Shown piece after piece: positions 6,501 through 27,391 of a DNA stretch of 64,000 nucleotides; position 1 is the first letter of the stretch, and the number at the start of each line of letters is the position of its first letter. Source of the stretch: Notolepis coatsorum. Its lineage: Eukaryota; Chordata; Actinopteri; Aulopiformes; Paralepididae. The translations under genes were made by a program, and so were the position numbers. Where the stretch lies: the NCBI GenBank assembly GCA_963971535.1, contig OZ020585.1:22132005-22196004 (forward strand). The letters run 5' to 3'. The notes below the pieces were generated by a model. It was not told where the DNA came from and did not search any database. It saw only the letters and a program-made list of their open reading frames with translations.

Positions 6501-8652
6501 CATACCTAATCCCCAAGAGCAGCCAGAATCTTCACTCGTCTTCTTTCGATTGTCACTTTTCTCCTCTCCCTCCTTCTCTTCCTCATCATCGCCATCAGAG
6601 CCTTCTCCCATCATTCTCTTCTCTAGCTCTGCCCTCTGCTTCCGGGCACGCTCCCGCAGCTCTGTGACCGTCAGATCAGACTCCGCCTCCTCGTCAAACT
6701 CGGGACCCTGTGGAATAATAGTATAATCAAGAGTTAGCCTCGACTAAGAGATGCCCTAGATCTGAGATCTTAAAAAGAACACACCGACATTATGGGAAAC
6801 GTGCTTACAGTCTTCTCCAGTCAGACACGAAGATAAACACCAATTTCCTATCTGTGCCTTCAGTAGAAAGCACAGAGAACACTAACATTAACACCTATCC
6901 CAGAGTTTTAAGCGAGGCTAGTGGTCCGTATCCGCTTCCATTAATTTGTGCTTAGCTAGGCCAGCTTGCAGCCGGATAGCTTTCTATTGAGCGCACATAG
7001 AGGAAATTGGTATCTATCTTCTTGTCAGACTCTGGAGAAGACATTTCCCATGATGGCGGGTTCCTTTAAAGCTGCATTGTGTACAAAGAAAAGTCCCACA
7101 TAAACATTAGGAAAATGCTTAGCACTTTCCAGTTATTTTCAACCTAGATATTATTTGATCATCTGGTATCATACATTTTCAGAACAAAACCGTGTAAATT
7201 GGACCAGGTATGACTCATGAGTGCTCCGATGAGTGGCTGTGTATTTCTGGTTGCTTGAGATGTCAGCAGCTCAACAGGACAACTGTGCAACAGTCAACAT
7301 ATCTCCTGAAAAGCATAATGTGTATTTTTTAACTCCAAAAAGACACTTTAAGGACATATTTAGGGCTTTTGGTCATATTCTTTGTTGCACAGTTGCCCTG
7401 TTGGATGAAGCTGGGAGAGAGCTGCTGCCAACTCAGGCCCAGAACCCCCCCCCCTAACATTCATCAAGTAGACTCATGATGACTCGTCAGATAGGTAAAT
7501 GTTCTTTCCCAAAAGTCCATATCACAGAAATGCTTCACCTGTAGGACAAAAAGCCTTGTGCTCCCTCCAAACTTGAGGACGTGCCCGACACGAAGTCTGG
7601 TGTAGGTCTTGGGTGGGACCTTGTTCTTGTTTACAAAGGTGCCATGCGTGCTGCCCAGGTCGTGGATGTAAAATCCAACCTCTTCTCCTCCGACAGACTC
7701 CTCTTCTCCAGCCTGCTGCCCACGATACTGTATGACGGCGTGGTACCTGGAGATCGAGGGATGCTCCAAGGCCACATCGCACACGGGTAAACGGCCGACC
7801 ACAAAGTAACTTCTCTGTGTGAGAGGGACCTGAATGAATGAATGAATGAATGAATACTTTATTTAACAGATTGCAGAATGGGTACAATACAAGGCTCAAT
7901 ACACACAATTGTTAAGGGGATGCAGACCAGAGAAAGACGTTTGTCTTGTTTACATCAGGGTGCCCCATTTTCAATTCATAGTGACATTTATGACATACAC
8001 AACATACATGACATTTATGGCATAGGGACATACATGATACAGGTATTTAGTACTGTTCAGTACTGTTTAGTACCTTATCAACTATGGTCCCGTTCTTGAG
8101 GATTTCGAGGGCGTAGGGGATGTCAGTTGTCACGCCACCCCACAGGGGCTCTGTGTATGGGAGAGAAGGGTGAGGTTTGAACTTCCCTATGGCTGGAAGT
8201 ACTCTGGGTTTGACCTCTTGCCTGGTCTCGACAGGAGGAGCACCAACCCTCTCCTCCTCGTCAGAACATGTCTCCTCCTCTTGTGCCGTTTCGGGTGTTT
8301 TGTTTTCTAAAATGTCTTCAGTAACGTCGCCCCTCGGAGTGTCTGGGGTTGCTGCTCCGCCGCTGCTGCTTTGTGGTTTGAGTGGTTCTTCTTTGACATC
8401 GCATGGTTCCTTTTCGGTGACGTGCTTGTTGATGGACGGAACAGCACCGCGTCTGACGGCGAAGGACGGTGCTGCAAAAAGAGCAGGTTTCTTGAAAGTA
8501 TTTTCTTCTTGTTCGCTACTCGTCACGTCTTTCTTTTCACGTTCACCCCCGTTCTCAGCACTCGCATCCTCGCCTGTTTCCACCGCAGTGTCCATTATTT
8601 CTTCCTCCGTATCTTTCTCACGCAATTCTGACTGCGAAGAGGAGGTCGCCAT
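438..8652 (-). CDS. SLC4A1AP: Kanadaptin, N-terminal ~544 residues, eight exons (3' end off window)
   Basis: Nuclear protein first described as a possible adaptor for the kidney anion exchanger AE1 and later found mainly in the nucleus. Coding exons on the minus strand: 8652-8074, 7829-7539, 6707-6506, 5253-5125, 4544-4484, 3874-3735, 3320-3160, 507-438. All junctions are GT-AG and the reading phase stays consistent through every one. Domain order: acidic low-complexity N-terminus (1-150); conserved [15 protein letters not shown] motif; FHA phosphopeptide-binding domain about 203-290 with G205-R206, S220-R221, H223 and N260; acidic linker; dsRBD-like region (401-467) including [17 protein letters not shown]; then the [20 protein letters not shown] block. 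The start (AAAAATGG context) has a good Kozak and no better upstream ATG. Kanadaptins are usually 740-800 residues, so roughly the last third is missing to the left. The gene is divergent from SUPT7L. Confidence 0.95.
893..1190 (+). repeat. Dispersed repeat shared with 60213-60545 (inverted)
   Basis: The block starting CACCGTTCATTGTAAACAAT and ending in the CATGCGCATG/CCAATCAGAGC end is found again, reverse-complemented, near 60213-60545. It shares the CTCTGATTGG terminal motif with the foldback elements at 31701 and 33652. Probably a DNA transposon with long inverted ends. Confidence 0.6.
1206..1312 (-). repeat. tRNA-derived SINE head fragment
   Basis: On the minus strand it reads GGTGCAGTGGTTAACACTG...AGGTCCTGGGTTCAGTTCCC, with tRNA-like A and B boxes of the same type as the SINE at 41570. 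It is truncated and not a functional tRNA gene. Confidence 0.65.
1315..2747 (+). mobile_element. Solo LTR, family A, 5-bp TSD GTAGG
   Basis: Starts TGTTGTGAAGGGCCAGATTA and ends CCCCTCAGTTACA (TG...CA). It is flanked by the perfect 5-bp duplication GTAGG at 1310-1314 and 2748-2752. An opposite-strand relative lies at 52498-53672 with the same ends. No gag-pol is present on either side, so this is a solo LTR, probably Gypsy- or Copia-like by TSD length. The frames inside it are not convincing genes. It lies in SLC4A1AP intron 7. Confidence 0.82.
2749..2850. mobile_element. hAT-like terminal fragment
   Basis: Starts TAGGGCTGCAGCTATCAATT and is rich in ATCGATTAATCGAG dyads, like fish hAT MITEs. 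The opposite terminus was not found. Confidence 0.4.
2990..3125 (-). repeat. tRNA-derived SINE fragment next to SLC4A1AP exon 7
   Basis: Minus strand reads CCGGGTTCGATTCCCAGACC...GCCCGGTAG, with a B-box/T-arm-like segment followed by a CT-rich body as in common fish SINEs. It is truncated and lies just downstream of the exon 7 donor. Confidence 0.5.
3160..3320 (-). CDS. SLC4A1AP: SLC4A1AP coding exon 7 (basic/acidic conserved block)
   Basis: Encodes [20 protein letters not shown], then [20 protein letters not shown] and [14 protein letters not shown]. This is the most diagnostic kanadaptin block and includes a basic cluster. The acceptor is preceded by an uninterrupted run of about 21 C; donor CTG|GTAAGA. 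Confidence 0.95.
3321..3734 (-). other. SLC4A1AP intron 6
   Basis: The intron holds a G run at its exon-7 edge (poly-C tract in the sense strand) and otherwise unclassified sequence. No exon or RNA gene was recognised. Confidence 0.7.
3735..3874 (-). CDS. SLC4A1AP: SLC4A1AP coding exon 6, dsRBD-like core
   Basis: Encodes [20 protein letters not shown] followed by [20 protein letters not shown] and LLRQEA, the helix-rich part of the dsRBD-like domain. The acceptor follows a poly-C/CT tract; donor GCAG|GTGGGC. Confidence 0.94.
3875..4483 (-). other. SLC4A1AP intron 5
   Basis: No exon recognised. At 4040-4100 there is a motif of the form GAAGATCCTTAGGGGATCGAAACG, typical in style of repeat-element termini, but I could not assign a family. 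Confidence 0.6.
4484..4544 (-). CDS. SLC4A1AP: SLC4A1AP coding exon 5 (61 nt)
   Basis: Short exon encoding [20 protein letters not shown]. It begins the dsRBD-like region; the HGTWLCR motif matches the family HSTWLCR. Acceptor CCCAG|GG; donor ATAAA|GTAAGT. Confidence 0.9.
5125..5253 (-). CDS. SLC4A1AP: SLC4A1AP coding exon 4
   Basis: Encodes [20 protein letters not shown], then the highly conserved [17 protein letters not shown]. It enters and leaves in phase 1. Acceptor CTGCAG|CTG; donor GAAG|GTCAGG. Confidence 0.93.
5606..6146. repeat. 36-bp minisatellite, ~15 copies, in SLC4A1AP intron 3
   Basis: A tandem unit of the form CAACATTCTGAATCGGCACG + CTGCTCGGCGTGTAAT, period 36 bp, with a few units shortened or lengthened. 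Because 36 is a multiple of 3, several frames on both strands stay open and translate into 12-residue repeats, but nothing supports translation. It lies in intron 3 (5254-6505). There are no spacers, so it is not a CRISPR array. Confidence 0.95.
6342..6506 (-). repeat. ~33-bp minisatellite carrying repeated 5' splice-site copies
   Basis: In the sense direction of SLC4A1AP, each unit contains the donor-like sequence TAG|GTATGAG. Copies begin (as CATACC on the plus strand) at 6501, 6472, 6439, 6406, 6375 and 6342, with spacings of 29-33 bp. The first is the real exon 3 donor. Confidence 0.85.
6506..6707 (-). CDS. SLC4A1AP: SLC4A1AP coding exon 3 (acidic/coiled linker)
   Basis: Encodes [20 protein letters not shown] through DSGCSWGL, 67 codons plus one base. 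It matches the ELTVTQLKELRKQ-type segment after the FHA domain. Acceptor CCACAG|GGT; donor TTAG|GTATGA. The donor lies at the edge of a minisatellite that repeats the same donor sequence. Confidence 0.9.
6774..7065. mobile_element. TTAA-flanked MITE in SLC4A1AP intron 2
   Basis: Inverted ends of the form AAAGAACACACC...ATGGGAAA and their diverged complement, flanked by TTAA at 6770-6773 and 7066-7069. TTAA duplication is typical of piggyBac and Kolobok elements. The ends resemble the hairpin MITE at 39007-39625, suggesting one family. No coding capacity. Confidence 0.6.
7539..7829 (-). CDS. SLC4A1AP: SLC4A1AP coding exon 2, FHA domain (residues 194-290)
   Basis: Begins [19 protein letters not shown] and ends [10 protein letters not shown], in phase 0 at both ends (97 codons). 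It holds the complete FHA core: the GR turn, the SRYH motif and the STHGTFVNK loop. The acceptor CAG directly abuts a (TCAT)n LINE tail on the intron side. Confidence 0.95.
7830..8073 (-). mobile_element. LINE 3' end forming all of SLC4A1AP intron 1
   Basis: This 244-bp intron aligns along its length with the 3' end of the LINE copies at 32595-32932 and 34546-34883. From the donor it reads GTACTAAACAGTACTG; then come the GTATGTCATAAATGTC part, the AATTGAAAATGGGGCACCCT part, AATAAAG, and (TCAT)n ending in the acceptor TTCAG. Both splice sites lie inside or at the edge of the LINE sequence. Confidence 0.8.
8074..8652 (-). CDS. SLC4A1AP: SLC4A1AP coding exon 1 (residues 1-193)
   Basis: Starts [14 protein letters not shown] and ends GTIVDK. 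It is rich in Glu, Asp, Ser and Thr and then enters the conserved [21 protein letters not shown] segment. The donor is AAG|GTACTA. The long plus-strand frames over this exon are shadows. Confidence 0.93.
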
Positions 8653-9289
8653 TTTTATTTGGTGCGACTGTTAAACCTGTCCGCCGTCTCATTGAAGCAA
8701 AATGCCGTGTTTTTAAATGAGGGTTTTATGGATATATATATATGGGATGTATATGATATATCACATTATAAAATACTATAATAATAAACAAAATGCTCGA
8801 AATCCTCTCATATTTCCTCTATTTAAAAATGTGAGATAATCTGTTTTTGCGGAACTGTCCAACTCAGTTACATTTTCACAGGGACATTTTTAGGAGACGG
8901 ACGATAAGATATCCGCGACGTTTGTAACCGTTTCACGTTCAGCGACCGTTTCCAGTGCTGTGAGTGTTTGAGTTGTTATTGTACTTGGAGTCACTTGTAT
9001 AGTATATAACCTGATATTAGCCACTTTAGACACACCCACTTGTTTGTTGGCTTTGTGTTCACTTCTATTGTGCTTCATTCCTAAGCGTCAGTTAATTCAC
9101 ACTGTATAAACAACCTGTAACGCACAGCGTATTGAAACAACTGTCTGTTTTTAGACTAAAATAGTTACAATGCAAAGTAGCGCCATTATATTCTCAACCA
9201 CACACACATTGAACAGGAGATGATGTGGTGAAGACTGATGCTCACTCTTTCTCCCTCTCCCCTCCTCCTTTCTCCCTCCTCCCCGCCCT
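8653..9289. promoter_or_regulatory. Upstream region of SLC4A1AP, probable half of a divergent promoter
   Basis: SLC4A1AP and SUPT7L are head-to-head neighbours in other vertebrates, so the SUPT7L promoter is expected here too. A possible non-coding SUPT7L first exon could end at the donor-like GTGAGT at 8960-8965, but no transcript evidence exists. The region ends in a pyrimidine-rich tract (9240-9289) holding the left target duplication of the foldback element. Confidence 0.4.
9282..9289. repeat. Left 8-bp target-site duplication CCCGCCCT
   Basis: CCCGCCCT directly precedes the terminal ACTGCGGTCAAG and is repeated exactly at 26790-26797, after the mirrored terminus. Confidence 0.9.
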
Positions 9290-9661
9290 ACTGCGGTCAA
9301 GTGAGCCGTCTTTTGCTTTTGCGTGGTCAAGTGAGCCGCTCTTGTTTTTCGAGTGCGCGATTAGTTCCAGGTTTACGGTAATGCATTAAAACAAGTCTGG
9401 GACGCTGTTGTAATGAACCGACGTGACTTTTGAACACAGTCTCACAAGTAGATCTTACAGAAATACTTAATAAGACATTGAATGCGCATCGAATCAATAG
9501 GACGTTTAGTCTAATCAATAGGACGTTTCGTATGTGCAGTATTATTGAACATCGAATCAATAGGACGCGCAGTATATTCGATCACTAAACTAAAGCTACA
9601 GACAATTCCACAGAGGAACACTTCCGGTGAGGATTTCAAAGTAAAGGATGGCATGTGGTTC
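9290..9661 (+). repeat. Left 372-bp terminal inverted repeat
   Basis: Mirrors 26418-26789 at the same length with a few mismatches. It contains GGTCAAGTGAGCCG twice (9295-9308 and 9325-9338, 30 bp apart) and AATCAATAGGACG three times (9492, 9513 and 9555; spacings 21 and 42 bp). Such clustered terminal and subterminal motifs look like transposase-binding sites. Confidence 0.9.
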
Positions 9662-12600
9662 ATTTCTATTATTTCATAAGTAGTTTATTACACTGCCATG
9701 TTTGTACTTAATACTTCTCAAGACTACTTGCACAAATAATATTAACTACTTTTACTGTGTACTTTGAGTAATTTGAGTTTCAACGTCCTTTTTATAGAAC
9801 AATGAGTATTTTCGACTAACTTTGATGTGGGATAAAAAAAGATTTTCCCATAAGCACTTTATGAAACTGCCATGGTTGTACTTAGTACCTCTTAGACTAC
9901 TTGTACAAATTATATGAAATATTTTTACTGTGTACTTTTTGAGTAATTTGAGTTTCAAAGTCCTCAGAATCAGCATTTTCGACTAACTTTGATGTGGTAT
10001 AAAAAAAGATTTTCCCATAAGCACTTTATGAAACTTCCATGGTTGTACTTAGTACCTCTTAGACTACTTGTACAAATTATATGAAATATTTTTACTGTGT
10101 ACTTTTTGAGTAATTTCAGTTTTAAAGTCCTCAGAATCAGCATTTTCGACTAACTTTGATGTTGGATAAAAACAATTCTTCCCATAAGCACTTTATGAAA
10201 CTGCCATGGTTGTACTTAGTACCTCTTAGACTACCTGTACAAATTATATGAAATATTTTTACTGTGTACTTTTTGAGTAATTTGAGTTTCAAAGTCCCCA
10301 GAATCAGCATTTTCGACTAACTTTGATGTGGGATAAAAAAAGATTTTCCCATAAGCACTTTATGAAACTGCCATGGTTGTACTTAGTACCTCTTAGACTA
10401 CTTGTACAAATTATATGAAATATTTTTACTGTGTACTTTTTGAGTAATTTCAGTTTTAAAGTCCTCAGAATCAGCATTTTCGACTAACTTTGATGTGGGA
10501 TAAAAAAAGATTTTCCCATAAGCACCTTATGAAACTGCCATGGTTGTACTTAGTACCTCTTAGACTACGTGTACAAATTATATGAAATATTTTTACTGTG
10601 TACTTTTTGAGTAATTTGAGTTTCAAAGTCCCCAGAATCAGCATTTTCTACTAACTTTGATGTGGGATAAAAAAAGATTTTCCCATAAGCACCTTATGAA
10701 ACTGCCATGGTTGTACTTAGTACCTCTTAGACTACGTGTACAAATTATATGAAATATTTTTACTGTGTACTTTTTGAGTAATTTGAGTTTCAAAGTCCCC
10801 AGAATCAGCATTTTCGACTAACTTTGATGTGGGATAAAAAAAGATTTTCCCATAAGCACCTTATGAAACTGCCATGGTTGTACTTAGTACCTCTTAGACT
10901 ACGTGTACAAATTATATGAAATATTTTTACTGTGTACTTTTTGAGTAATTTGAGTTTCAAAGTCCTCAGAATCAGCATTTTCGACTAACTTTGATGTGGT
11001 ATAAAAAAAGATTTTCCCATAAGCACTTTATGAAACTTCCATGGTTGTACTTAGTACCTCTTAGACTACTTGTACAAATTATATGAAATATTTTTACTGT
11101 GTACTTTTTGAGTAATTTCAGTTTTAAAGTCCTCAGAATCAGCATTTTCGACTAACTTTGATGTTGGATAAAAACAATTCTTCCCATAAGCACTTTATGA
11201 AACTGCCATGGTTGTACTTAGTACCTCTTAGACTACCTGTACAAATTATATGAAATATTTTTACTGTGTACTTTTTGAGTAATTTCAGTTTCAAAGTCCC
11301 CAGAATCAGCATTTTCTACTAACTTTGATGTGGGATAAAAAAAGATTTTCCCATAAGCACTTTATGAAACTGCCATGGTTGTACTTAGTACCTCTTAGAC
11401 TACTTGTACAAATTATATGAAATATTTTTACTGTGTACTTTTTGAGTAATTTCAGTTTTAAAGTCCTCAGAATCAGCATTTTCGACTAACTTTGATGTGG
11501 GATAAAAAAAGATTTTCCCATAAGCACCCTATGAAACTGCCATGGTTGTACTTAGTACCTCTTAGACTACGTGTACAAATTATATGAAATATTTTTACTG
11601 TGTACTTTTTGAGTAATTTGAGTTTCAAAGTCCCCAGAATCAGCATTTTCTACTAACTTTGATGTGGGATAAAAAAAGATTTTCCCATAAGCACCTTATG
11701 AAACTGCCATGGTTGTACTTAGTACCTCTTAGACTACTTGTACAAATTATATGAAATATTTTTACTGTGTACTTTTTGAGTAATTTCAGTTTCAAAGTCC
11801 CCAGAATCAGCATTTTCGACTAACTTTGATGTGGGATAAAAAAAGATTTTCCCATAAGCACCTTATGAAACTGCCATGGTTGTACTTAGTACCTCTTAGA
11901 CTACGTGTACAAATTATATGAAATATTTTTACTGTGTACTTTTTGAGTAATTTGAGTTTCAAAGTCCCCAGAATCAGCATTTTCGACTAACTTTGATGTG
12001 GGATAAAAAAAGATTTTCCCATAAGCACCTTATGAAACTGCCATGGTTGTACTTAGTACCTCTTAGACTACCTGTACAAATTATATGAAATATTTTTACT
12101 GTGTACTTTTTGAGTAATTTCAGTTTCAAAGTCCCCAGAATCAGCATTTTCGACTAACTTTGATGTGGGATAAAAAAAGATTTTCCCATAAGCACCTTAT
12201 GAAACTGCCATGGTTGTACTTAGTACCTCTTAGACTACCTGTACAAATTATATGAAATATTTTTACTGTGTACTTTTTGAGTAATTTCAGTTTCAAAGTC
12301 CCCAGAATCAGCATTTTCTACTAACTTTGATGTGGGATAAAAAAAGATTTTCCCATAAGCACCTTATGAAACTGCCATGGTTGTACTTAGTACCTCTTAG
12401 ACTACTTGTACAAATTATATGAAATATTTTTACTGTGTACTTTTTGAGTAATTTGAGTTTCAAAGTCCCCAGAATCAGCATTTTCGACTAACTTTGATGT
12501 TGGATAAAAACAATTCTTCCCATAAGCACTTTATGAAACTGCCATGGTTGTACTTAGTACCTCTTAGACTACCTGTACAAATTATATGAAATATTTTTAC

Positions 12601-15600
12601 TGTGTACTTTTTGAGTAATTTCAGTTTCAAAGTCCCCAGAATCAGCATTTTCGACTAACTTTGATGTGGGATAAAAAAAGATTTTCCCATAAGCACCTTA
12701 TGAAACTGCCATGGTTGTACTTAGTACCTCTTAGACTACGTGTACAAATTATATGAAATATTTTTACTGTGTACTTTTTGAGTAATTTGAGTTTCAAAGT
12801 CCCCAGAATCAGCATTTTCTACTAACTTTGATGTGGGATAAAAAAAGATTTTCCCATAAGCACCTTATGAAACTGCCATGGTTGTACTTAGTACCTCTTA
12901 GACTACTTGTACAAATTATATGAAATATTTTTACTGTGTACTTTTTGAGTAATTTCAGTTTCAAAGTCCCCAGAATCAGCATTTTCGACTAACTTTGATG
13001 TGGGATAAAAAAAGATTTTCCCATAAGCACCTTATGAAACTGCCATGGTTGTACTTAGTACCTCTTAGACTACGTGTACAAATTATATGAAATATTTTTA
13101 CTGTGTACTTTTTGAGTAATTTGAGTTTCAAAGTCCCCAGAATCAGCATTTTCTACTAACTTTGATGTGGGATAAAAAAAGATTTTCCCATAAGCACCTT
13201 ATGAAACTGCCATGGTTGTACTTAGTACCTCTTAGACTACTTGTACAAATTATATGAAATATTTTTACTGTGTACTTTTTGAGTAATTTCAGTTTCAAAG
13301 TCCCCAGAATCAGCATTTTCGACTAACTTTGATGTGGGATAAAAAAAGATTTTCCCATAAGCACCTTATGAAACTGCCATGGTTGTACTTAGTACCTCTT
13401 AGACTACGTGTACAAATTATATGAAATATTTTTACTGTGTACTTTTTGAGTAATTTGAGTTTCAAAGTCCCCAGAATCAGCATTTTCGACTAACTTTGAT
13501 GTGGGATAAAAAAAGATTTTCCCATAAGCACCTTATGAAACTGCCATGGTTGTACTTAGTACCTCTTAGACTACCTGTACAAATTATATGAAATATTTTT
13601 ACTGTGTACTTTTTGAGTAATTTCAGTTTCAAAGTCCCCAGAATCAGCATTTTCGACTAACTTTGATGTGGGATAAAAAAAGATTTTCCCATAAGCACCT
13701 TATGAAACTGCCATGGTTGTACTTAGTACCTCTTAGACTACCTGTACAAATTATATGAAATATTTTTACTGTGTACTTTTTGAGTAATTTCAGTTTCAAA
13801 GTCCCCAGAATCAGCATTTTCTACTAACTTTGATGTGGGATAAAAAAAGATTTTCCCATAAGCACCTTATGAAACTGCCATGGTTGTACTTAGTACCTCT
13901 TAGACTACTTGTACAAATTATATGAAATATTTTTACTGTGTACTTTTTGAGTAATTTCAGTTTCAAAGTCCCCAGAATCAGCATTTTCGACTAACTTTGA
14001 TGTGGGATAAAAAAAGATTTTCCCATAAGCACCTTATGAAACTGCCATGGTTGTACTTAGTACCTCTTAGACTACGTGTACAAATTATATGAAATATTTT
14101 TACTGTGTACTTTTTGAGTAATTTGAGTTTCAAAGTCCCCAGAATCAGCATTTTCTACTAACTTTGATGTGGGATAAAAAAAGATTTTCCCATAAGCACC
14201 TTATGAAACTGCCATGGTTGTACTTAGTACCTCTTAGACTACTTGTACAAATTATATGAAATATTTTTACTGTGTACTTTTTGAGTAATTTCAGTTTCAA
14301 AGTCCCCAGAATCAGCATTTTCGACTAACTTTGATGTGGGATAAAAAAAGATTTTCCCATAAGCACCTTATGAAACTGCCATGGTTGTACTTAGTACCTC
14401 TTAGACTACCTGTACAAATTATATGAAATATTTTTACTGTGTACTTTTTGAGTAATTTGAGTTTCAAAGTCCTCAGAATCAGCATTTTCGACTAACTTTG
14501 ATGTGGGATAAAAAAAGATTTTCCCATAAGCACCTTATGAAACTGCCATGGTTGTACTTAGTACCTCTTAGACTACGTGTACAAATTATATGAAATATTT
14601 TTACTGTGTACTTTTTGAGTAATTTGAGTTTCAAAGTCCCCAGAATCAGCATTTTCGACTAACTTTGATGTGGGATAAAAAAAGATTTTCCCATAAGCAC
14701 CTTATGAAACTGCCATGGTTGTACTTAGTACCTCTTAGACTACCTGTACAAATTATATGAAATATTTTTACTGTGTACTTTTTGAGTAATTTGAGTTTCA
14801 AAGTCCCCAGAATCAGCATTTTCGACTAACTTTGATGTTGGATAAAAACAATTCTTCCCATAAGCACTTTATGAAACTGCCATGGTTGTACTTAGTACCT
14901 CTTAGACTACCTGTACAAATTATATGAAATATTTTTACTGTGTACTTTTTGAGTAATTTCAGTTTCAAAGTCCCCAGAATCAGCATTTTCGACTAACTTT
15001 GATGTGGGATAAAAAAAGACTTTCCCATAAGCACCTTATGAAACTGCCATGGTTGTACTTAGTACCTCTTAGACTACGTGTACAAATTATATGAAATATT
15101 TTTACTGTGTACTTTTTGAGTAATTTGAGTTTCAAAGTCCCCAGAATCAGCATTTTCGACTAACTTTGATGTGGGATAAAAAAAGATTTTCCCATAAGCA
15201 CCTTATGAAACTGCCATGGTTGTACTTAGTACCTCTTAGACTACGTGTACAAATTATATGAAATATTTTTACTGTGTACTTTTTGAGTAATTTGAGTTTC
15301 AAAGTCCCCAGAATCAGCATTTTCGACTAACTTTGATGTGGGATAAAAAAAGATTTTCCCATAAGCACCTTATGAAACTGCCATGGTTGTACTTAGTACC
15401 TCTTAGACTACCTGTACAAATTATATGAAATATTTTTACTGTGTACTTTTTGAGTAATTTGAGTTTCAAAGTCCTCAGAATCAGCATTTTCGACTAACTT
15501 TGATGTTGGATAAAAACAATTCTTCCCATAAGCACTTTATGAAACTGCCATGGTTGTACTTAGTACCTCTTAGACTACCTGTACAAATTATATGAAATAT

Positions 15601-16367
15601 TTTTACTGTGTACTTTTTGAGTAATTTCAGTTTCAAAGTCCCCAGAATCAGCATTTTCGACTAACTTTGATGTGGGATAAAAAAAGATTTTCCCATAAGC
15701 ACCTTATGAAACTGCCATGGTTGTACTTAGTACCTCTTAGACTACGTGTACAAATTATATGAAATATTTTTACTGTGTACTTTTTGAGTAATTTGAGTTT
15801 CAAAGTCCCCAGAATCAGCATTTTCTACTAACTTTGATGTGGGATAAAAAAAGATTTTCCCATAAGCACCTTATGAAACTGCCATGGTTGTACTTAGTAC
15901 CTCTTAGACTACTTGTACAAATTATATGAAATATTTTTACTGTGTACTTTTTGAGTAATTTCAGTTTTAAAGTCCTCAGAATCAGCATTTTCGACTAACT
16001 TTGATGTGGGATAAAAAAAGATTTTCCCATAAGCACTTTATGAAACTGCCATGGTTGTACTTAGTACCTCTTAGACTACCTGTACAAATTATATGAAATA
16101 TTTTTACTGTGTACTTTTTGAGTAATTTCAGTTTCAAAGTCCCCAGAATCAGCATTTTCGACTAACTTTGATGTGGGATAAAAAAAGATTTTCCCATAAG
16201 CACCTTATGAAACTGCCATGGTTGTACTTAGTACCTCTTAGACTACGTGTACAAATTATATGAAATATTTTTACTGTGTACTTTTTGAGTAATTTGAGTT
16301 TCAAAGTCCCCAGAATCAGCATTTTCGACTAACTTTGATGTGGGATAAAAACAATTCTTCCCATAAG
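9662..16367 (+). repeat. Left satellite arm, ~40 monomers of 167 bp
   Basis: The CTTTGATGTGGGATAAAAAA landmark recurs every 167 bp (for example 10321, 10488, 10655). The outermost monomer is diverged; inner ones are nearly identical. Marker variants (GTTGGATAAAAACAATTC) sit at 10161, 11163, 12499, 14837 and 15505, at 6, 8, 14 and 4 monomer spacings, so monomers are organised in multi-monomer blocks. Confidence 0.95.
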
Positions 16368-16378
16368 GTGCTTATGGG
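16360..16378. repeat. Inversion centre of the satellite palindrome
   Basis: CCCATAAG (16360-16367), a 3-bp spacer GTG, then CTTATGGG (16371-16378). The orientation of all monomers flips here, leaving essentially no loop. Confidence 0.95.
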
Positions 16379-19300
16379 AAAATCTTTTTTTATCCCACAT
16401 CAAAGTTAGTCGAAAATGCTGATTCTGAGGACTTTGAAACTCAAATTACTCAAAAAGTACACAGTAAAAATATTTCATATAATTTGTACAAGTAGTCTAA
16501 GAGGTACTAAGTACAACCATGGCAGTTTCATAAGGTGCTTATGGGAAAATCTTTTTTTATCCCACATCAAAGTTAGTAGAAAATGCTGATTCTGGGGACT
16601 TTGAAACTCAAATTACTCAAAAAGTACACAGTAAAAATATTTCATATAATTTGTACACGTAGTCTAAGAGGTACTAAGTACAACCATGGCAGTTTCATAA
16701 GGTGCTTATGGGAAAATCTTTTTTTATCCCACATCAAAGTTAGTCGAAAATGCTGATTCTGGGGACTTTGAAACTGAAATTACTCAAAAAGTACACAGTA
16801 AAAATATTTCATATAATTTGTACAAGTAGTCTAAGAGGTACTAAGTACAACCATGGCAGTTTCATAAGGTGCTTATGGGAAAATCTTTTTTTATCCCACA
16901 TCAAAGTTAGTAGAAAATGCTGATTCTGGGGACTTTGAAACTCAAATTACTCAAAAAGTACACAGTAAAAATATTTCATATAATTTGTACACGTAGTCTA
17001 AGAGGTACTAAGTACAACCATGGCAGTTTCATAAGGTGCTTATGGGAAAATCTTTTTTTATCCCACATCAAAGTTAGTCGAAAATGCTGATTCTGGGGAC
17101 TTTGAAACTCAAATTACTCAAAAAGTACACAGTAAAAATATTTCATATAATTTGTACACGTAGTCTAAGAGGTACTAAGTACAACCATGGCAGTTTCATA
17201 AGGTGCTTATGGGAAAATCTTTTTTTATCCCACATCAAAGTTAGTCGAAAATGCTGATTCTGGGGACTTTGAAACTGAAATTACTCAAAAAGTACACAGT
17301 AAAAATATTTCATATAATTTGTACAGGTAGTCTAAGAGGTACTAAGTACAACCATGGCAGTTTCATAAAGTGCTTATGGGAAGAATTGTTTTTATCCAAC
17401 ATCAAAGTTAGTCGAAAATGCTGATTCTGAGGACTTTGAAACTCAAATTACTCAAAAAGTACACAGTAAAAATATTTCATATAATTTGTACAGGTAGTCT
17501 AAGAGGTACTAAGTACAACCATGGCAGTTTCATAAGGTGCTTATGGGAAAATCTTTTTTTATCCCACATCAAAGTTAGTAGAAAATGCTGATTCTGGGGA
17601 CTTTGAAACTCAAATTACTCAAAAAGTACACAGTAAAAATATTTCATATAATTTGTACAAGTAGTCTAAGAGGTACTAAGTACAACCATGGCAGTTTCAT
17701 AAGGTGCTTATGGGAAAATCTTTTTTTATCCCACATCAAAGTTAGTCGAAAATGCTGATTCTGGGGACTTTGAAACTCAAATTACTCAAAAAGTACACAG
17801 TAAAAATATTTCATATAATTTGTACACGTAGTCTAAGAGGTACTAAGTACAACCATGGCAGTTTCATAAGGTGCTTATGGGAAAATCTTTTTTTATCCCA
17901 CATCAAAGTTAGTCGAAAATGCTGATTCTGGGGACTTTGAAACTGAAATTACTCAAAAAGTACACAGTAAAAATATTTCATATAATTTGTACAGGTAGTC
18001 TAAGAGGTACTAAGTACAACCATGGCAGTTTCATAAAGTGCTTATGGGAAGAATTGTTTTTATCCAACATCAAAGTTAGTCGAAAATGCTGATTCTGAGG
18101 ACTTTGAAACTCAAATTACTCAAAAAGTACACAGTAAAAATATTTCATATAATTTGTACAGGTAGTCTAAGAGGTACTAAGTACAACCATGGCAGTTTCA
18201 TAAGGTGCTTATGGGAAAATCTTTTTTTATCCCACATCAAAGTTAGTCGAAAATGCTGATTCTGAGGACTTTAAAACTGAAATTACTCAAAAAGTACACA
18301 GTAAAAATATTTCATATAATTTGTACACGTAGTCTAAGAGGTACTAAGTACAACCATGGCAGTTTCATAAGGTGCTTATGGGAAAATCTTTTTTTATCCC
18401 ACATCAAAGTTAGTCGAAAATGCTGATTCTGGGGACTTTGAAACTGAAATTACTCAAAAAGTACACAGTAAAAATATTTCATATAATTTGTACAGGTAGT
18501 CTAAGAGGTACTAAGTACAACCATGGCAGTTTCATAAAGTGCTTATGGGAAGAATTGTTTTTATCCAACATCAAAGTTAGTTGAAAATGCTGATTCTGAG
18601 GACTTTGAAACTCAAATTACTCAAAAAGTACACAGTAAAAATATTTCATATAATTTGTACAGGTAGTCTAAGAGGTACTAAGTACAACCATGGCAGTTTC
18701 ATAAGGTGCTTATGGGAAAATCTTTTTTTATCCCACATCAAAGTTAGTCGAAAATGCTGATTCTGGGGACTTTGAAACTCAAATTACTCAAAAAGTACAC
18801 AGTAAAAATATTTCATATAATTTGTACACGTAGTCTAAGAGGTACTAAGTACAACCATGGCAGTTTCATAAGGTGCTTATGGGAAAATCTTTTTTTATCC
18901 CACATCAAAGTTAGTCGAAAATGCTGATTCTGAGGACTTTGAAACTCAAATTACTCAAAAAGTACACAGTAAAAATATTTCATATAATTTGTACAGGTAG
19001 TCTAAGAGGTACTAAGTACAACCATGGCAGTTTCATAAGGTGCTTATGGGAAAATCTTTTTTTATCCCACATCAAAGTTAGTCGAAAATGCTGATTCTGA
19101 GGACTTTAAAACTGAAATTACTCAAAAAGTACACAGTAAAAATATTTCATATAATTTGTACAGGTAGTCTAAGAGGTACTAAGTACAACCATGGCAGTTT
19201 CATAAGGTGCTTATGGGAAAATCTTTTTTTATCCCACATCAAAGTTAGTCGAAAATGCTGATTCTGGGGACTTTGAAACTGAAATTACTCAAAAAGTACA

Positions 19301-22300
19301 CAGTAAAAATATTTCATATAATTTGTACAGGTAGTCTAAGAGGTACTAAGTACAACCATGGCAGTTTCATAAAGTGCTTATGGGAAGAATTGTTTTTATC
19401 CAACATCAAAGTTAGTCGAAAATGCTGATTCTGAGGACTTTGAAACTCAAATTACTCAAAAAGTACACAGTAAAAATATTTCATATAATTTGTACAGGTA
19501 GTCTAAGAGGTACTAAGTACAACCATGGCAGTTTCATAAGGTGCTTATGGGAAAATCTTTTTTTATCCCACATCAAAGTTAGTCGAAAATGCTGATTCTG
19601 GGGACTTTGAAACTCAAATTACTCAAAAAGTACACAGTAAAAATATTTCATATAATTTGTACACGTAGTCTAAGAGGTACTAAGTACAACCATGGCAGTT
19701 TCATAAGGTGCTTATGGGAAAATCTTTTTTTATCCCACATCAAAGTTAGTCGAAAATGCTGATTCTGAGGACTTTGAAACTCAAATTACTCAAAAAGTAC
19801 ACAGTAAAAATATTTCATATAATTTGTACAGGTAGTCTAAGAGGTACTAAGTACAACCATGGCAGTTTCATAAGGTGCTTATGGGAAAATCTTTTTTTAT
19901 CCCACATCAAAGTTAGTCGAAAATGCTGATTCTGAGGACTTTAAAACTGAAATTACTCAAAAAGTACACAGTAAAAATATTTCATATAATTTGTACACGT
20001 AGTCTAAGAGGTACTAAGTACAACCATGGCAGTTTCATAAGGTGCTTATGGGAAAATCTTTTTTTATCCCACATCAAAGTTAGTCGAAAATGCTGATTCT
20101 GGGGACTTTGAAACTGAAATTACTCAAAAAGTACACAGTAAAAATATTTCATATAATTTGTACAGGTAGTCTAAGAGGTACTAAGTACAACCATGGCAGT
20201 TTCATAAAGTGCTTATGGGAAGAATTGTTTTTATCCAACATCAAAGTTAGTCGAAAATGCTGATTCTGAGGACTTTGAAACTCAAATTACTCAAAAAGTA
20301 CACAGTAAAAATATTTCATATAATTTGTACAGGTAGTCTAAGAGGTACTAAGTACAACCATGGCAGTTTCATAAGGTGCTTATGGGAAAATCTTTTTTTA
20401 TCCCACATCAAAGTTAGTCGAAAATGCTGATTCTGGGGACTTTGAAACTCAAATTACTCAAAAAGTACACAGTAAAAATATTTCATATAATTTGTACACG
20501 TAGTCTAAGAGGTACTAAGTACAACCATGGCAGTTTCATAAGGTGCTTATGGGAAAATCTTTTTTTATCCCACATCAAAGTTAGTCGAAAATGCTGATTC
20601 TGGGGACTTTGAAACTGAAATTACTCAAAAAGTACACAGTAAAAATATTTCATATAATTTGTACAAGTAGTCTAAGAGGTACTAAGTACAACCATGGCAG
20701 TTTCATAAGGTGCTTATGGGAAAATCTTTTTTTATCCCACATCAAAGTTAGTAGAAAATGCTGATTCTGGGGACTTTGAAACTGAAATTACTCAAAAAGT
20801 ACACAGTAAAAATATTTCATATAATTTGTACACGTAGTCTAAGAGGTACTAAGTACAACCATGGCAGTTTCATAAGGTGCTTATGGGAAAATCTTTTTTT
20901 ATCCCACATCAAAGTTAGTCGAAAATGCTGATTCTGGGGACTTTGAAACTGAAATTACTCAAAAAGTACACAGTAAAAATATTTCATATAATTTGTACAG
21001 GTAGTCTAAGAGGTACTAAGTACAACCATGGCAGTTTCATAAGGTGCTTATGGGAAAATCTTTTTTTATCCCACATCAAAGTTAGTCGAAAATGCTGATT
21101 CTGGGGACTTTGAAACTCAAATTACTCAAAAAGTACACAGTAAAAATATTTCATATAATTTGTACAGGTAGTCTAAGAGGTACTAAGTACAACCATGGCA
21201 GTTTCATAAGGTGCTTATGGGAAAATCTTTTTTTATCCCACATCAAAGTTAGTCGAAAATGCTGATTCTGGGGACTTTGAAACTCAAATTACTCAAAAAG
21301 TACACAGTAAAAATATTTCATATAATTTGTACACGTAGTCTAAGAGGTACTAAGTACAACCATGGCAGTTTCATAAGGTGCTTATGGGAAAATCTTTTTT
21401 TATCCCACATCAAAGTTAGTCGAAAATGCTGATTCTGAGGACTTTGAAACTCAAATTACTCAAAAAGTACACAGTAAAAATATTTCATATAATTTGTACA
21501 GGTAGTCTAAGAGGTACTAAGTACAACCATGGCAGTTTCATAAGGTGCTTATGGGAAAATCTTTTTTTATCCCACATCAAAGTTAGTCGAAAATGCTGAT
21601 TCTGAGGACTTTAAAACTGAAATTACTCAAAAAGTACACAGTAAAAATATTTCATATAATTTGTACACGTAGTCTAAGAGGTACTAAGTACAACCATGGC
21701 AGTTTCATAAGGTGCTTATGGGAAAATCTTTTTTTATCCCACATCAAAGTTAGTCGAAAATGCTGATTCTGGGGACTTTGAAACTGAAATTACTCAAAAA
21801 GTACACAGTAAAAATATTTCATATAATTTGTACAGGTAGTCTAAGAGGTACTAAGTACAACCATGGCAGTTTCATAAAGTGCTTATGGGAAGAATTGTTT
21901 TTATCCAACATCAAAGTTAGTCGAAAATGCTGATTCTGAGGACTTTGAAACTCAAATTACTCAAAAAGTACACAGTAAAAATATTTCATATAATTTGTAC
22001 AGGTAGTCTAAGAGGTACTAAGTACAACCATGGCAGTTTCATAAGGTGCTTATGGGAAAATCTTTTTTTATCCCACATCAAAGTTAGTCGAAAATGCTGA
22101 TTCTGGGGACTTTGAAACTCAAATTACTCAAAAAGTACACAGTAAAAATATTTCATATAATTTGTACACGTAGTCTAAGAGGTACTAAGTACAACCATGG
22201 CAGTTTCATAAGGTGCTTATGGGAAAATCTTTTTTTATCCCACATCAAAGTTAGTCGAAAATGCTGATTCTGAGGACTTTGAAACTCAAATTACTCAAAA

Positions 22301-25300
22301 AGTACACAGTAAAAATATTTCATATAATTTGTACAGGTAGTCTAAGAGGTACTAAGTACAACCATGGCAGTTTCATAAGGTGCTTATGGGAAAATCTTTT
22401 TTTATCCCACATCAAAGTTAGTCGAAAATGCTGATTCTGAGGACTTTAAAACTGAAATTACTCAAAAAGTACACAGTAAAAATATTTCATATAATTTGTA
22501 CACGTAGTCTAAGAGGTACTAAGTACAACCATGGCAGTTTCATAAGGTGCTTATGGGAAAATCTTTTTTTATCCCACATCAAAGTTAGTCGAAAATGCTG
22601 ATTCTGGGGACTTTGAAACTGAAATTACTCAAAAAGTACACAGTAAAAATATTTCATATAATTTGTACAGGTAGTCTAAGAGGTACTAAGTACAACCATG
22701 GCAGTTTCATAAAGTGCTTATGGGAAGAATTGTTTTTATCCAACATCAAAGTTAGTCGAAAATGCTGATTCTGAGGACTTTGAAACTCAAATTACTCAAA
22801 AAGTACACAGTAAAAATATTTCATATAATTTGTACAGGTAGTCTAAGAGGTACTAAGTACAACCATGGCAGTTTCATAAGGTGCTTATGGGAAAATCTTT
22901 TTTTATCCCACATCAAAGTTAGTCGAAAATGCTGATTCTGGGGACTTTGAAACTCAAATTACTCAAAAAGTACACAGTAAAAATATTTCATATAATTTGT
23001 ACACGTAGTCTAAGAGGTACTAAGTACAACCATGGCAGTTTCATAAGGTGCTTATGGGAAAATCTTTTTTTATCCCACATCAAAGTTAGTCGAAAATGCT
23101 GATTCTGGGGACTTTGAAACTGAAATTACTCAAAAAGTACACAGTAAAAATATTTCATATAATTTGTACAAGTAGTCTAAGAGGTACTAAGTACAACCAT
23201 GGCAGTTTCATAAGGTGCTTATGGGAAAATCTTTTTTTATCCCACATCAAAGTTAGTAGAAAATGCTGATTCTGGGGACTTTGAAACTGAAATTACTCAA
23301 AAAGTACACAGTAAAAATATTTCATATAATTTGTACACGTAGTCTAAGAGGTACTAAGTACAACCATGGCAGTTTCATAAGGTGCTTATGGGAAAATCTT
23401 TTTTTATCCCACATCAAAGTTAGTCGAAAATGCTGATTCTGGGGACTTTGAAACTGAAATTACTCAAAAAGTACACAGTAAAAATATTTAATATAATTTG
23501 TACAGGTAGTCTAAGAGGTACTAAGTACAACCATGGCAGTTTCATAAGGTGCTTATGGGAAAATCTTTTTTTATCCCACATCAAAGTTAGTCGAAAATGC
23601 TGATTCTGGGGACTTTGAAACTCAAATTACTCAAAAAGTACACAGTAAAAATATTTCATATAATTTGTACAGGTAGTCTAAGAGGTACTAAGTACAACCA
23701 TGGCAGTTTCATAAGGTGCTTATGGGAAAATCTTTTTTTATCCCACATCAAAGTTAGTCGAAAATGCTGATTCTGGGGACTTTGAAACTCAAATTACTCA
23801 AAAAGTACACAGTAAAAATATTTCATATAATTTGTACACGTAGTCTAAGAGGTACTAAGTACAACCATGGCAGTTTCATAAGGTGCTTATGGGAAAATCT
23901 TTTTTTATCCCACATCAAAGTTAGTCGAAAATGCTGATTCTGAGGACTTTGAAACTCAAATTACTCAAAAAGTACACAGTAAAAATATTTCATATAATTT
24001 GTACAGGTAGTCTAAGAGGTACTAAGTACAACCATGGCAGTTTCATAAGGTGCTTATGGGAAAATCTTTTTTTATCCCACATCAAAGTTAGTCGAAAATG
24101 CTGATTCTGAGGACTTTAAAACTGAAATTACTCAAAAAGTACACAGTAAAAATATTTCATATAATTTGTACACGTAGTCTAAGAGGTACTAAGTACAACC
24201 ATGGCAGTTTCATAAGGTGCTTATGGGAAAATCTTTTTTTATCCCACATCAAAGTTAGTCGAAAATGCTGATTCTGGGGACTTTGAAACTGAAATTACTC
24301 AAAAAGTACACAGTAAAAATATTTCATATAATTTGTACAGGTAGTCTAAGAGGTACTAAGTACAACCATGGCAGTTTCATAAAGTGCTTATGGGAAGAAT
24401 TGTTTTTATCCAACATCAAAGTTAGTCGAAAATGCTGATTCTGAGGACTTTGAAACTCAAATTACTCAAAAAGTACACAGTAAAAATATTTCATATAATT
24501 TGTACAGGTAGTCTAAGAGGTACTAAGTACAACCATGGCAGTTTCATAAGGTGCTTATGGGAAAATCTTTTTTTATCCCACATCAAAGTTAGTCGAAAAT
24601 GCTGATTCTGGGGACTTTGAAACTCAAATTACTCAAAAAGTACACAGTAAAAATATTTCATATAATTTGTACACGTAGTCTAAGAGGTACTAAGTACAAC
24701 CATGGCAGTTTCATAAGGTGCTTATGGGAAAATCTTTTTTTATCCCACATCAAAGTTAGTCGAAAATGCTGATTCTGGGGACTTTGAAACTGAAATTACT
24801 CAAAAAGTACACAGTAAAAATATTTCATATAATTTGTACAAGTAGTCTAAGAGGTACTAAGTACAACCATGGCAGTTTCATAAGGTGCTTATGGGAAAAT
24901 CTTTTTTTATCCCACATCAAAGTTAGTAGAAAATGCTGATTCTGGGGACTTTGAAACTGAAATTACTCAAAAAGTACACAGTAAAAATATTTCATATAAT
25001 TTGTACACGTAGTCTAAGAGGTACTAAGTACAACCATGGCAGTTTCATAAGGTGCTTATGGGAAAATCTTTTTTTATCCCACATCAAAGTTAGTCGAAAA
25101 TGCTGATTCTGGGGACTTTGAAACTGAAATTACTCAAAAAGTACACAGTAAAAATATTTCATATAATTTGTACAGGTAGTCTAAGAGGTACTAAGTACAA
25201 CCATGGCAGTTTCATAAGGTGCTTATGGGAAAATCTTTTTTTATCCCACATCAAAGTTAGTCGAAAATGCTGATTCTGGGGACTTTGAAACTCAAATTAC

Positions 25301-26417
25301 TCAAAAAGTACACAGTAAAAATATTTCATATAATTTGTACACGTAGTCTAAGAGGTACTAAGTACAACCATGGCAGTTTCATAAGGTGCTTATGGGAAAA
25401 TCTTTTTTTATCCCACATCAAAGTTAGTCGAAAATGCTGATTCTGGGGACTTTGAAACTGAAATTACTCAAAAAGTACACAGTAAAAATATTTCATATAA
25501 TTTGTACAAGTAGTCTAAGAGGTACTAAGTACAACCATGGCAGTTTCATAAGGTGCTTATGGGAAAATCTTTTTTTATCCCACATCAAAGTTAGTAGAAA
25601 ATGCTGATTCTGGGGACTTTGAAACTCAAATTACTCAAAAAGTACACAGTAAAAATATTTCATATAATTTGTACACGTAGTCTAAGAGGTACTAAGTACA
25701 ACCATGGCAGTTTCATAAGGTGCTTATGGGAAAATCTTTTTTTATCCCACATCAAAGTTAGTCGAAAATGCTGATTCTGGGGACTTTGAAACTGAAATTA
25801 CTCAAAAAGTACACAGTAAAAATATTTCATATAATTTGTACAGGTAGTCTAAGAGGTACTAAGTACAACCATGGCAGTTTCATAAGGTGCTTATGGGAAA
25901 ATCTTTTTTTATCCCACATCAAAGTTAGTCGAAAATGCTGATTCTGGGGACTTTGAAACTGAAATTACTCAAAAAGTACACAGTAAAAATATTTCATATA
26001 ATTTGTACAAGTAGTCTAAGAGGTACTAAGTACAACCATGGAAGTTTCATAAAGTGCTTATGGGAAAATCTTTTTTTATACCACATCAAAGTTAGTCGAA
26101 AATGCTGATTCTGAGGACTTTGAAACTCAAATTACTCAAAAAGTACACAGTAAAAATATTTCATATAATTTGTACAAGTAGTCTAAGAGGTACTAAGTAC
26201 AACCATGGCAGTTTCATAAAGTGCTTATGGGAAAATCTTTTTTTTATCCCACATCAAAGTTAGTCGAAAATACTCATTGTTCTATAAAAAGGACTTTGAA
26301 ACTCAAATTACTCAAAGTACACAGTAAAAGTAGTTAATATTATTTGTGCAAGTAGTCTTGAGAAGTATTAAGTACAAACATGGCAGTGTAATAAACTACT
26401 TATGAAATAATAGAAAT
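16371..26417 (-). repeat. Right satellite arm, ~60 inverted 167-bp monomers
   Basis: The same monomer reverse-complemented. The GAAGAATTGTTTTTATCCAA variant recurs near 17369, 18037, 18538, 19371, 20208, 21885, 22719 and 24389. Spacings correspond to 4, 3, 5, 5, 10, 5 and 10 monomers, giving a repeated 15-monomer (about 2.5 kb) higher-order unit in the outer half. Confidence 0.95.
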
Positions 26418-26789
26418 GAACCACATGCCATCCTTTACTTTGAAATCCTCACCGGAAGTGTTCCTCTGTGGAATTGTCTGTAGCTTTTGTTTAGTGGTCG
26501 AATATACTGCGCGTCCTATTGATTCGATGTTCAATAATACTGCACATACGAAACGTCCTATTGATTAGACTAAACGTCCTATTGATTCGATGCGCATTCA
26601 ATGTCATATTAAGTATTTCTGTAAGATCTACTTGCGAGACTGTGTTCAAAAGTCACGTCGGTTCATTACAACAGCCTCCCAGGGTTGTTTGAATGCATTA
26701 CCGTAAACCTGGAACTAATCGCGCACTCGAAAAACAAGAGCGGCTCACTTGACCACGCAAAAGCAAAAGACGGCTCACTTGACCGCAGT
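26418..26789 (-). repeat. Right 372-bp terminal inverted repeat
   Basis: Reverse complement of 9290-9661, including the paired terminal motif and the three subterminal CGTCCTATTGATT copies. The largest difference is a patch around 26670-26700. Confidence 0.9.
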
Positions 26790-26797
26790 CCCGCCCT
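26790..26797. repeat. Right 8-bp target-site duplication CCCGCCCT
   Basis: Exact copy of 9282-9289. It is followed directly by a LINE tail (GATGTAAACAAGAC). Confidence 0.9.
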
Positions 26798-26923
26798 GAT
26801 GTAAACAAGACAAACGTCTTTCTCTGGTCTGCATCCCCTTAACAATTGTGTGTATTGAGCCGTACTGTATTGTATTTGTACCCATTCTGCAATCTGTTAA
26901 ATAAAGTTTTCATTCATTCATTA
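26796..26923 (+). mobile_element. LINE 3' tail upstream of SUPT7L start exon
   Basis: Reads CTGATGTAAACAAGAC...CATTCTGCAATCTGTTAAAT, ending in (CATT)n, the same 3' end as at 7830, 28613, 32595 and 63826. It is truncated at its 5' side. It lies a few bases before the putative acceptor of the SUPT7L start-codon exon. Confidence 0.8.
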
Positions 26924-26966
26924 ATTCTGTCTAGACCCGTGAGAGCTTGAACCTCCCTGTGTCGCC

Positions 26967-27391
26967 ATGATGCGTTACTGGGGTGAGATCCCTGGGCCTG
27001 CGGGCGCCCCGCCCAGCCGCAGCTCCTTTGACCTGCTGCAGCGTGAGTTCCGCTCGGTGGAGATGCAGGACCCTCCCTTGCACCAGCCCTCGGCACAGCG
27101 CCCTCGACCCACCACCATGTTGGACATCCCCTCCGAACCGTGCAGCCTCACCATCCACACCGTGCAGCTGTGCCAGCATGCCCGCCGCCTCCGAAGCCTG
27201 CTGGCCCAGGTTCAGGGTCAGGGCTCTGCGCCCTCCGAGGGGGGCGGCAGACTGGAGGAGGCCGACACCCACCTGCCCCTATGCCCGCCCACGCCGCCTG
27301 CCATGCCAGACGACCTGCTGCCACAGGACAGCAAAGCCCCACGACAGCCGTTTCAGCTCCGCCACAGTGACCCTGAGAGTGACTTCTATAA
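26967..27391 (+). CDS. SUPT7L: SUPT7L coding exon 1 (start exon)
   Basis: Encodes MMRYWGEIPGPAGAPPSRSS through SDPESDFYK. Donor TATAA|GTGAGT. The likely splice acceptor is TTCTGTCTAG ending at 26934, so the exon would start at 26935 with 32 bases of 5' UTR. Confidence 0.94.

Follow-up and report, generated by a model that had tools for sequence, protein, structure and literature searches.

Inverted ends, satellite edges and palindrome centre very probably travel together as a non-autonomous foldback transposon in Notolepis coatsorum

We analysed a 64,000-nucleotide stretch of the genome of Notolepis coatsorum (assembly GCA_963971535.1, contig OZ020585.1, positions 22,132,005 to 22,196,004 of the forward strand), hereafter the window. 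Between exons of two genes lies a 17,500-bp element (9290-26789), which consists mainly of a tandem array of a 167-bp satellite that reverses direction once between inverted ends. Read directly from the sequence, the element is bracketed by an 8-bp duplication, CCCGCCCT. The parts of the element and the features next to it are the following, with positions given in the window. TSD stands for target site duplication, TIR for terminal inverted repeat and LINE for long interspersed nuclear element.

9282-9289, no strand: left TSD, CCCGCCCT, read directly; family ends start immediately after it
9290-9667, plus strand: left TIR, 378 bp, alpha haplotype with two private differences
9668-16367, plus strand: left arm of about 40 monomers (167 bp each), starting with a divergent edge monomer
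16368-16370, no strand: turnaround, the palindrome axis, ATAAG-GTG-CTTAT
16371-26411, minus strand: right arm, in which about 60 monomers lie inverted and some segments are duplicated internally
26412-26789, minus strand: right TIR, 378 bp, beta haplotype
26790-26797, no strand: right TSD, CCCGCCCT, read directly
26794-26927, plus strand: 3' end of a dispersed LINE-like repeat adjoining the insertion, with at least 39 matches besides the window
26934-27395, plus strand: first coding exon of a SUPT7L-like gene (STAGA complex 65 subunit gamma), ATG at 26967, acceptor placed by eye
7464-8652, minus strand: exons of an FHA-domain gene, ATG at about 8652

Tandem Repeats Finder identified 40.0 copies of the 167-bp unit at 9685-16367 and 60.0 inverted copies at 16362-26394, with 97% matches. 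A hidden Markov model likewise counted 40 and 60 monomers with a single switch of orientation. Around the axis, two arms of 6,567 nt are 98% complementary and are separated by 3 nt (16368-16370). This centre coincides with a short inverted repeat of the monomer (ATAAG-3 nt-CTTAT), and the 141 nt of single-stranded DNA surrounding it have a predicted folding energy of -64.9 kcal/mol (z of -20.7 relative to shuffled sequences). The window contains 43 stop-to-stop frames of at least 120 amino acids, none of which overlaps the element. Thus, the description in an earlier model-made note (the sequence-only reading) of a palindrome of about 100 satellite monomers, with no loop and no genes, is accurate. 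The same note placed the limits of the array at inverted repeats of 372 bp. The inverted ends are present, but they measure 378 bp up to the start of array homology, with 8 mismatches. They include short direct repeats, and the flanks beyond the TSDs have no inverted homology (10/60 matches). The flanking duplication was recovered on both sides of the element, as had been claimed. For any single pair of ends, an identical 8-mer would arise by chance with a probability of 1.5e-5; besides the two TSD copies, the 8-mer occurs a third time in the window, at 28987.

The genome searched for related sequences was that of the window itself (3.42 Gb). A 403-bp end query, which included the TSD at its start, gave 40 scored matches of 99-100% identity (the best 40 of 500 candidates). 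Of these, 38 begin at query base 7-9, the inner edge of the TSD; the others are the window and one match from base 2. The outermost 21-mer of the end occurs exactly at 311 genomic places (151 forward and 160 reverse, compared with 0 and 0 for the reversed control), and so the termini do recur elsewhere in the genome, on which the sequence-only reading depended. The outer 19-mer without the following T was found at 5 genomic places only, with no divergent cousin class seen there. Among the first 100 of the 311 places listed are 30 inverted pairs no more than 60 kb apart, including the window. A 57.6-kb pair (L057/L058) is probably two unrelated ends; the other 29 pairs span 1.8-30.9 kb, with a mean of 11.3 kb. 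The sequence-only reading had also proposed a search for an autonomous copy with a transposase; none was found at the loci read.

We compared 34 elements with both ends: the window element, 29 listed pairs (L057/L058 among them), three pairs from the 403-bp search and one found via its centre. Perfect 8-bp TSDs flank 19 of them, all 19 distinct and with no strong consensus; one further element has a 9-bp TSD and five have 7/8 matches. Perfect TSDs are also present around elements of up to 24.6 and 30.9 kb, although these lengths are given by the ends only, the interiors being unread. The array starts at element position 391 in eight of 15 elements; in the other seven the start is offset by a few bases, by insertions or by decay. 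There is one orientation switch in 16 of the 18 elements whose array was read. Long inverted repeats that make up most of the element, internal tandem repeats and TSDs at independent insertions are structural features of foldback elements, and all are found in this family.

There are eight differences between the left and right ends of the window element, two of them private to its left end and six separating two end haplotypes of the family, alpha and beta. Alpha/beta pairs are found in 14 of the 34 elements (13 intact, plus L009 with a deletion in its beta end); 9 elements are alpha/alpha, none is beta/beta, and 11 are older, mixed or broken. The alpha/beta pair is inherited through many insertions. 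The right end of L013 is of mixed haplotype (bbbbbbaa). The left end of L063, an alpha/alpha element with a TSD match of 6/8, is one base off the 21-mer.

In 13 elements compared, the turnaround falls at 13 different monomer positions, and all 13 centres differ. Shared and private centres serve as molecular tags by which movement, array growth and centre breakage can be traced separately. Of three centres tested, two are common to elements on different contigs. A 38-mer spanning the window axis occurs at exactly two genomic places, the second being on contig C45. The C45 element is 10,486 bp long, has its own TSD (GAATTGGC), and differs from the window element at 2/390 and 1/390 sites in the ends. 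The two agree in the first monomers on both sides and in the orientation of the centre. They have exact shared runs of 1,139 and 1,119 bp, the latter crossing the centre, and the C45 element is shorter by exactly 42 monomers of 167 bp. The centre of L013, which includes 5 nt of filler, is represented by a 36-mer at four loci in the genome. The one further locus of these that was read, L072 on contig C4, has arms that differ in length from those of L013, and the exact runs shared by the two measure 915, 910 and 747 bp. Their common centre has opposite orientations relative to alpha and beta, from which we infer an inversion by exchange between arms.

An element on contig C21 (24.6 kb by its two ends, interior unread) lies inside another copy of the LINE end and has the TSD TTAACAAT. 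Its joined flanks align through uninterrupted LINE-end copies, at 94.5% to window positions 26794-26920 and at 96.9% to L007, and they align gap-free to places in L020, L022, L052 and L068. These uninterrupted copies are related empty sites for the 24.6-kb C21 sibling.

Ends, satellite edges and, in the two shared cases tested, centres occur together at separate loci, and more than half of the elements compared have a perfect 8-bp TSD of their own. The unit is best explained as a non-autonomous foldback transposon. We conclude that the three very probably travel together in this form, leaving aside the length of the array on arrival. The proposal of the sequence-only reading that array and termini were inserted together is supported by the C45 element, the four-locus centre, the alpha/beta pairs in 14 of 34 elements and the related empty site of the C21 sibling.

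Several observations weigh against this conclusion. Nine of the 34 elements have no acceptable TSD (6/8 matches in four, at most 5/8 in five), a sign of ectopic exchange, of decay or of ends that were wrongly paired. Two of the 18 arrays read, those of L010 and L012, are not palindromic and consist of two and six monomers in a single orientation. The L019 centre is private to L019. Monomer sharing discriminates weakly, as siblings share 64-86% and same-lineage elements with different centres 47-65% (L071 shares only 1-4%). In a set of 15 elements that all have different centres, no exact run longer than 785 bp is shared; thus, deep array content is mostly element-specific, and arrays may have had other lengths at insertion. 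A genome search with the joined window flanks, in which 40 of 1,191 candidates were scored, revealed no empty allele for the window insertion and matched just the two halves of the window and copies of the LINE-like 3' end. The empty-site check proposed earlier therefore succeeded as a related site for the C21 sibling, but not for the window insertion. No autonomous copy or transposase was found among the elements and ends examined. In addition, gene conversion could spread a centre without transposition, although it leaves the separate TSDs unexplained.

A rival to transposition is that gene conversion or ectopic recombination transferred centre and array from one existing element to another. 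This would be consistent with mixed-haplotype ends (the right end of L013), with the flipped orientation that the L013 centre has, relative to the ends, at the C4 locus, and with the nine elements that have no acceptable TSD. We consider this improbable, because the window and C45 elements match in ends, edges, centre and orientation while their TSDs are intact and different. Long, near-perfect palindromes are generally hard to assemble, and the one in the window might be an artefact in which one arm was folded over. This is very improbable given that the right-end haplotype is complete in 11 other elements (and is present with a deletion in L009 and in part in L013), that the arms are unequal in length and differ in monomer order, that the centre is found at a second locus, and that the two flanks of the window element differ and carry its TSD. 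For the satellite to have expanded in place between unrelated flanking repeats, which the sequence-only reading denied, there is nothing specific beyond the tandem array itself. The identical ends at 311 places, the 8-bp TSDs, the shared centres and the array start at position 391 in eight of 15 elements uphold that denial, and we reject such expansion as extremely improbable.

It is quite possible, although we do not adopt it, that only short foldbacks, consisting of the ends and a handful of monomers, were transposed and that the long arrays grew in place later. Arrays range from a few monomers to 100, the window and C45 elements differ by whole monomers, and the siblings L013 and L072 differ in both arms. 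The right arm of the window element has local segmental duplications (the longest exact direct repeat is 1,821 bp), and edge monomers are conserved while interiors differ. On the other hand, the window and C45 elements have the 1,139-bp and 1,119-bp interior runs in common besides ends and centre, and L013 and L072 have their three exact runs. These long shared interior runs imply that at least several monomers per arm moved with the ends. Monomer-variant barcodes revealed conserved edge monomers, fast-changing interiors and local segmental duplications, and whole-monomer turnover of the arrays seems to outpace mutation of the ends.

Centre junctions were located by a tolerant monomer walk. 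Overlaps of 2-7 nt were identified in seven of 13 junctions and fillers of 5-1,158 nt in four of 13. This looks like end joining of a broken palindrome, a mechanism suggested by the form of the junctions. In L017, the centre (element bases of about 2,840-4,000) contains more than 1.1 kb of unrelated DNA, including a minisatellite, between the arms.

A 45-mer of the monomer occurs exactly at 6,151 genomic places and is held by 444 of 509 monomers in 16 elements. From these counts, about 7,050 monomers (1.2 Mb) are expected, or about 45 per pair of ends. The first 100 of the 6,151 places listed are all on contig C1, in three clusters, each at a family terminus; two of the clusters are between listed end pairs and one is against a single listed end. 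There may be separate satellite blocks among the 6,051 places beyond these. It is conceivable, although rather doubtful, that the 167-bp family is a mobile satellite without a heterochromatic home, existing chiefly as the body of transposons. Every transposition, or the repair that follows, would then break the loop-free centre and copy the arms through template switching, so that moving would amplify the satellite as well as disperse it.

The transposase of an autonomous element might bind the ends, excise the whole palindrome and reinsert it at a new site, where 8 bp would be duplicated. Unequal exchange or replication slippage, during a move or following it, could add or remove 167-bp monomers as whole units. 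The centre of the palindrome, which is often nearly loop-free, may sometimes break and rejoin with microhomology or filler, so that a lineage acquires a different centre, and recombination between arms could flip a centre relative to the ends. Satellite arrays of kilobase size would thereby be scattered over the chromosomes, the one in the window having reached the 5' region of the SUPT7L-like gene.

Duplications of 8 bp fit several superfamilies. An autonomous copy was sought at 10 of the 40 listed unpaired ends (L023-L028 and L065-L068) and at L010 and L071, and none was recognised, with frames judged by eye. These loci contain retroelement frames, repetitive or unassigned frames, or further array. 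hAT domains are abundant in the genome (the best 150 of 10,698 candidates were scored). On contigs with listed ends there are 48 hAT hits, none of which is inside the 30 listed pairs and one of which is 3.4 kb outside. The 8-bp TSD is a feature shared with hAT elements, whose TSD consensus is nTnnnnAn. By this consensus hAT is not supported, as T is at position 2 in 6/19 TSDs and A at position 7 in 4/19. Helitrons have neither TSD nor TIR, and an assignment to them is not supported, as both are present. An 8-bp TSD is also made by Zisupton (PMC12730594), and this Zisupton/KDZ feature is found here. A profile search for the KDZ domain (PF18758) gave 0 hits, but 14 control genomes were equally silent.

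We also noted family ends in other contexts. Four unpaired ends (L024, L027, L028 and L066) have a nearly identical outside flank, so that an end of this family seems to be carried inside another dispersed repeat at these loci. At L065:8830-9001 there is a 172-bp palindrome purely of outermost family ends, in two inverted copies of about 90 bp each. It is a minimal relative that resembles a miniature inverted-repeat transposable element (MITE) and has no evident TSD. LINE-like reverse transcriptase frames are present within or beside the ends of L018, L020, L022 and L071, from which it follows that LINEs inserted into this family.

The coding sequence of the SUPT7L-like gene starts 170 bp right of the TSD. 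The matches of its first coding exon are to chains that bear the name STAGA complex 65 subunit gamma (1e-52), and its splice acceptor, placed by eye, is apparently at 26934. The FHA-domain gene, which we take to be kanadaptin/SLC4A1AP, is about 630 bp left of the element and points outward. By this arrangement, the element lies either in the region where the two genes stand head to head or within intron 1 of the SUPT7L-like gene. The order of the genes points to a vertebrate. Because the gene whose 5' region holds this near-perfect 17.5-kb palindrome encodes a transcription coactivator subunit, the locus is a natural test of how such DNA affects a promoter.

Classical FB elements of Drosophila melanogaster and the sea urchin foldbacks have long inverted, internally repetitive ends, with shorter repeat units and arms than the family described here. 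Both of these groups are cited as foldbacks in the description of Tetris (PMC4079207). Tetris and Galileo are the nearest systems in kind, and the present family is unusually large and loop-less. Tetris, from Drosophila virilis, is a non-autonomous foldback with 220-bp tandem repeats in its inverted ends and TSDs of 8-10 bp. Its TIRs are up to 1,735 bp and enclose a middle domain, three structurally complete copies are described, and its repeats also form satellite-like arrays (PMC4079207). The foldback form, the satellite-like tandem repeats in the ends, the similar TSD length and the fact that no autonomous copy was found are common to both families. Unlike Tetris, the elements described here span 1.8-31 kb by their ends, and array makes up most of the ones read, which have no middle domain. 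For Tetris, a 37-bp segment common to TIR and repeat is also described (PMC4079207). We found no such segment here, the best local scores between TIR and monomer being 19 (forward) and 21 (reverse) against a mean of 21 and a maximum of 34 for shuffled sequences. The authors of the Tetris study propose that transposition may have been disrupted where arrays were larger (PMC4079207).

Galileo, of the P superfamily in Drosophila, has foldback-like ends with variable tandem repeats, which are units of about 210 bp in one group. It includes many copies without transposase, although a transposase is known, and makes 7-bp duplications (PMC3573991, PMC3688188). The Galileo TIRs extend to about 1.26 kb, with up to three repeats (PMC3573991). 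Both families combine foldback-like ends with a varying number of internal tandem repeats, whereas the present one has up to about 60 monomers per arm and an 8-bp TSD. Compared by description, it is set apart from both Tetris and Galileo by size, lack of a middle domain, dominance of the satellite, number of insertions and the evidence from shared centres.

Tandem repeats are also carried and spread, with the array inside the element, by the Xenopus MITEs miDNA4 and Xstir and by Helitrons, in which an inverted palindromic array is not described in the excerpt available (PMC12628747). In the D. virilis group, arrays of 172TR/pvB370 are dispersed in chromosome arms, and one de novo insertion of a 1.5-kb array is reported; in contrast to the family described here, the excerpt names no TIRs or palindrome (PMC10783647). 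The literature consulted showed no satellite foldback of comparable build in a vertebrate, although one may be in print, and no occurrence of the end and monomer sequences was found in the text of published papers. As this family indicates, a satellite can be mobile when it forms the body of a transposon, which bears on how satellites enter chromosome arms and on whether long arrays still jump.

Other repeats were identified elsewhere in the window. A palindrome of about 629 bp (96%) at 39003-39629, with the ends TTAAAGGGGAACTCC...GGAGTTCCCCTTTAA, resembles a foldback MITE with TTAA ends and, by eye, is unrelated to the 17.5-kb element. Another small foldback is a near-perfect 238-bp palindrome (97.5%) at 44215-44452. 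A tandem duplication of 1.95 kb (31445-33394 and 33394-35362) is 98.8% identical between copies, with identical open frames, and a 36-bp unit repeated 15 times at 5606-6147 is open in several frames on both strands. An open frame with a BED zinc finger (PF02892) at 42478-43023 is probably a transposon remnant.

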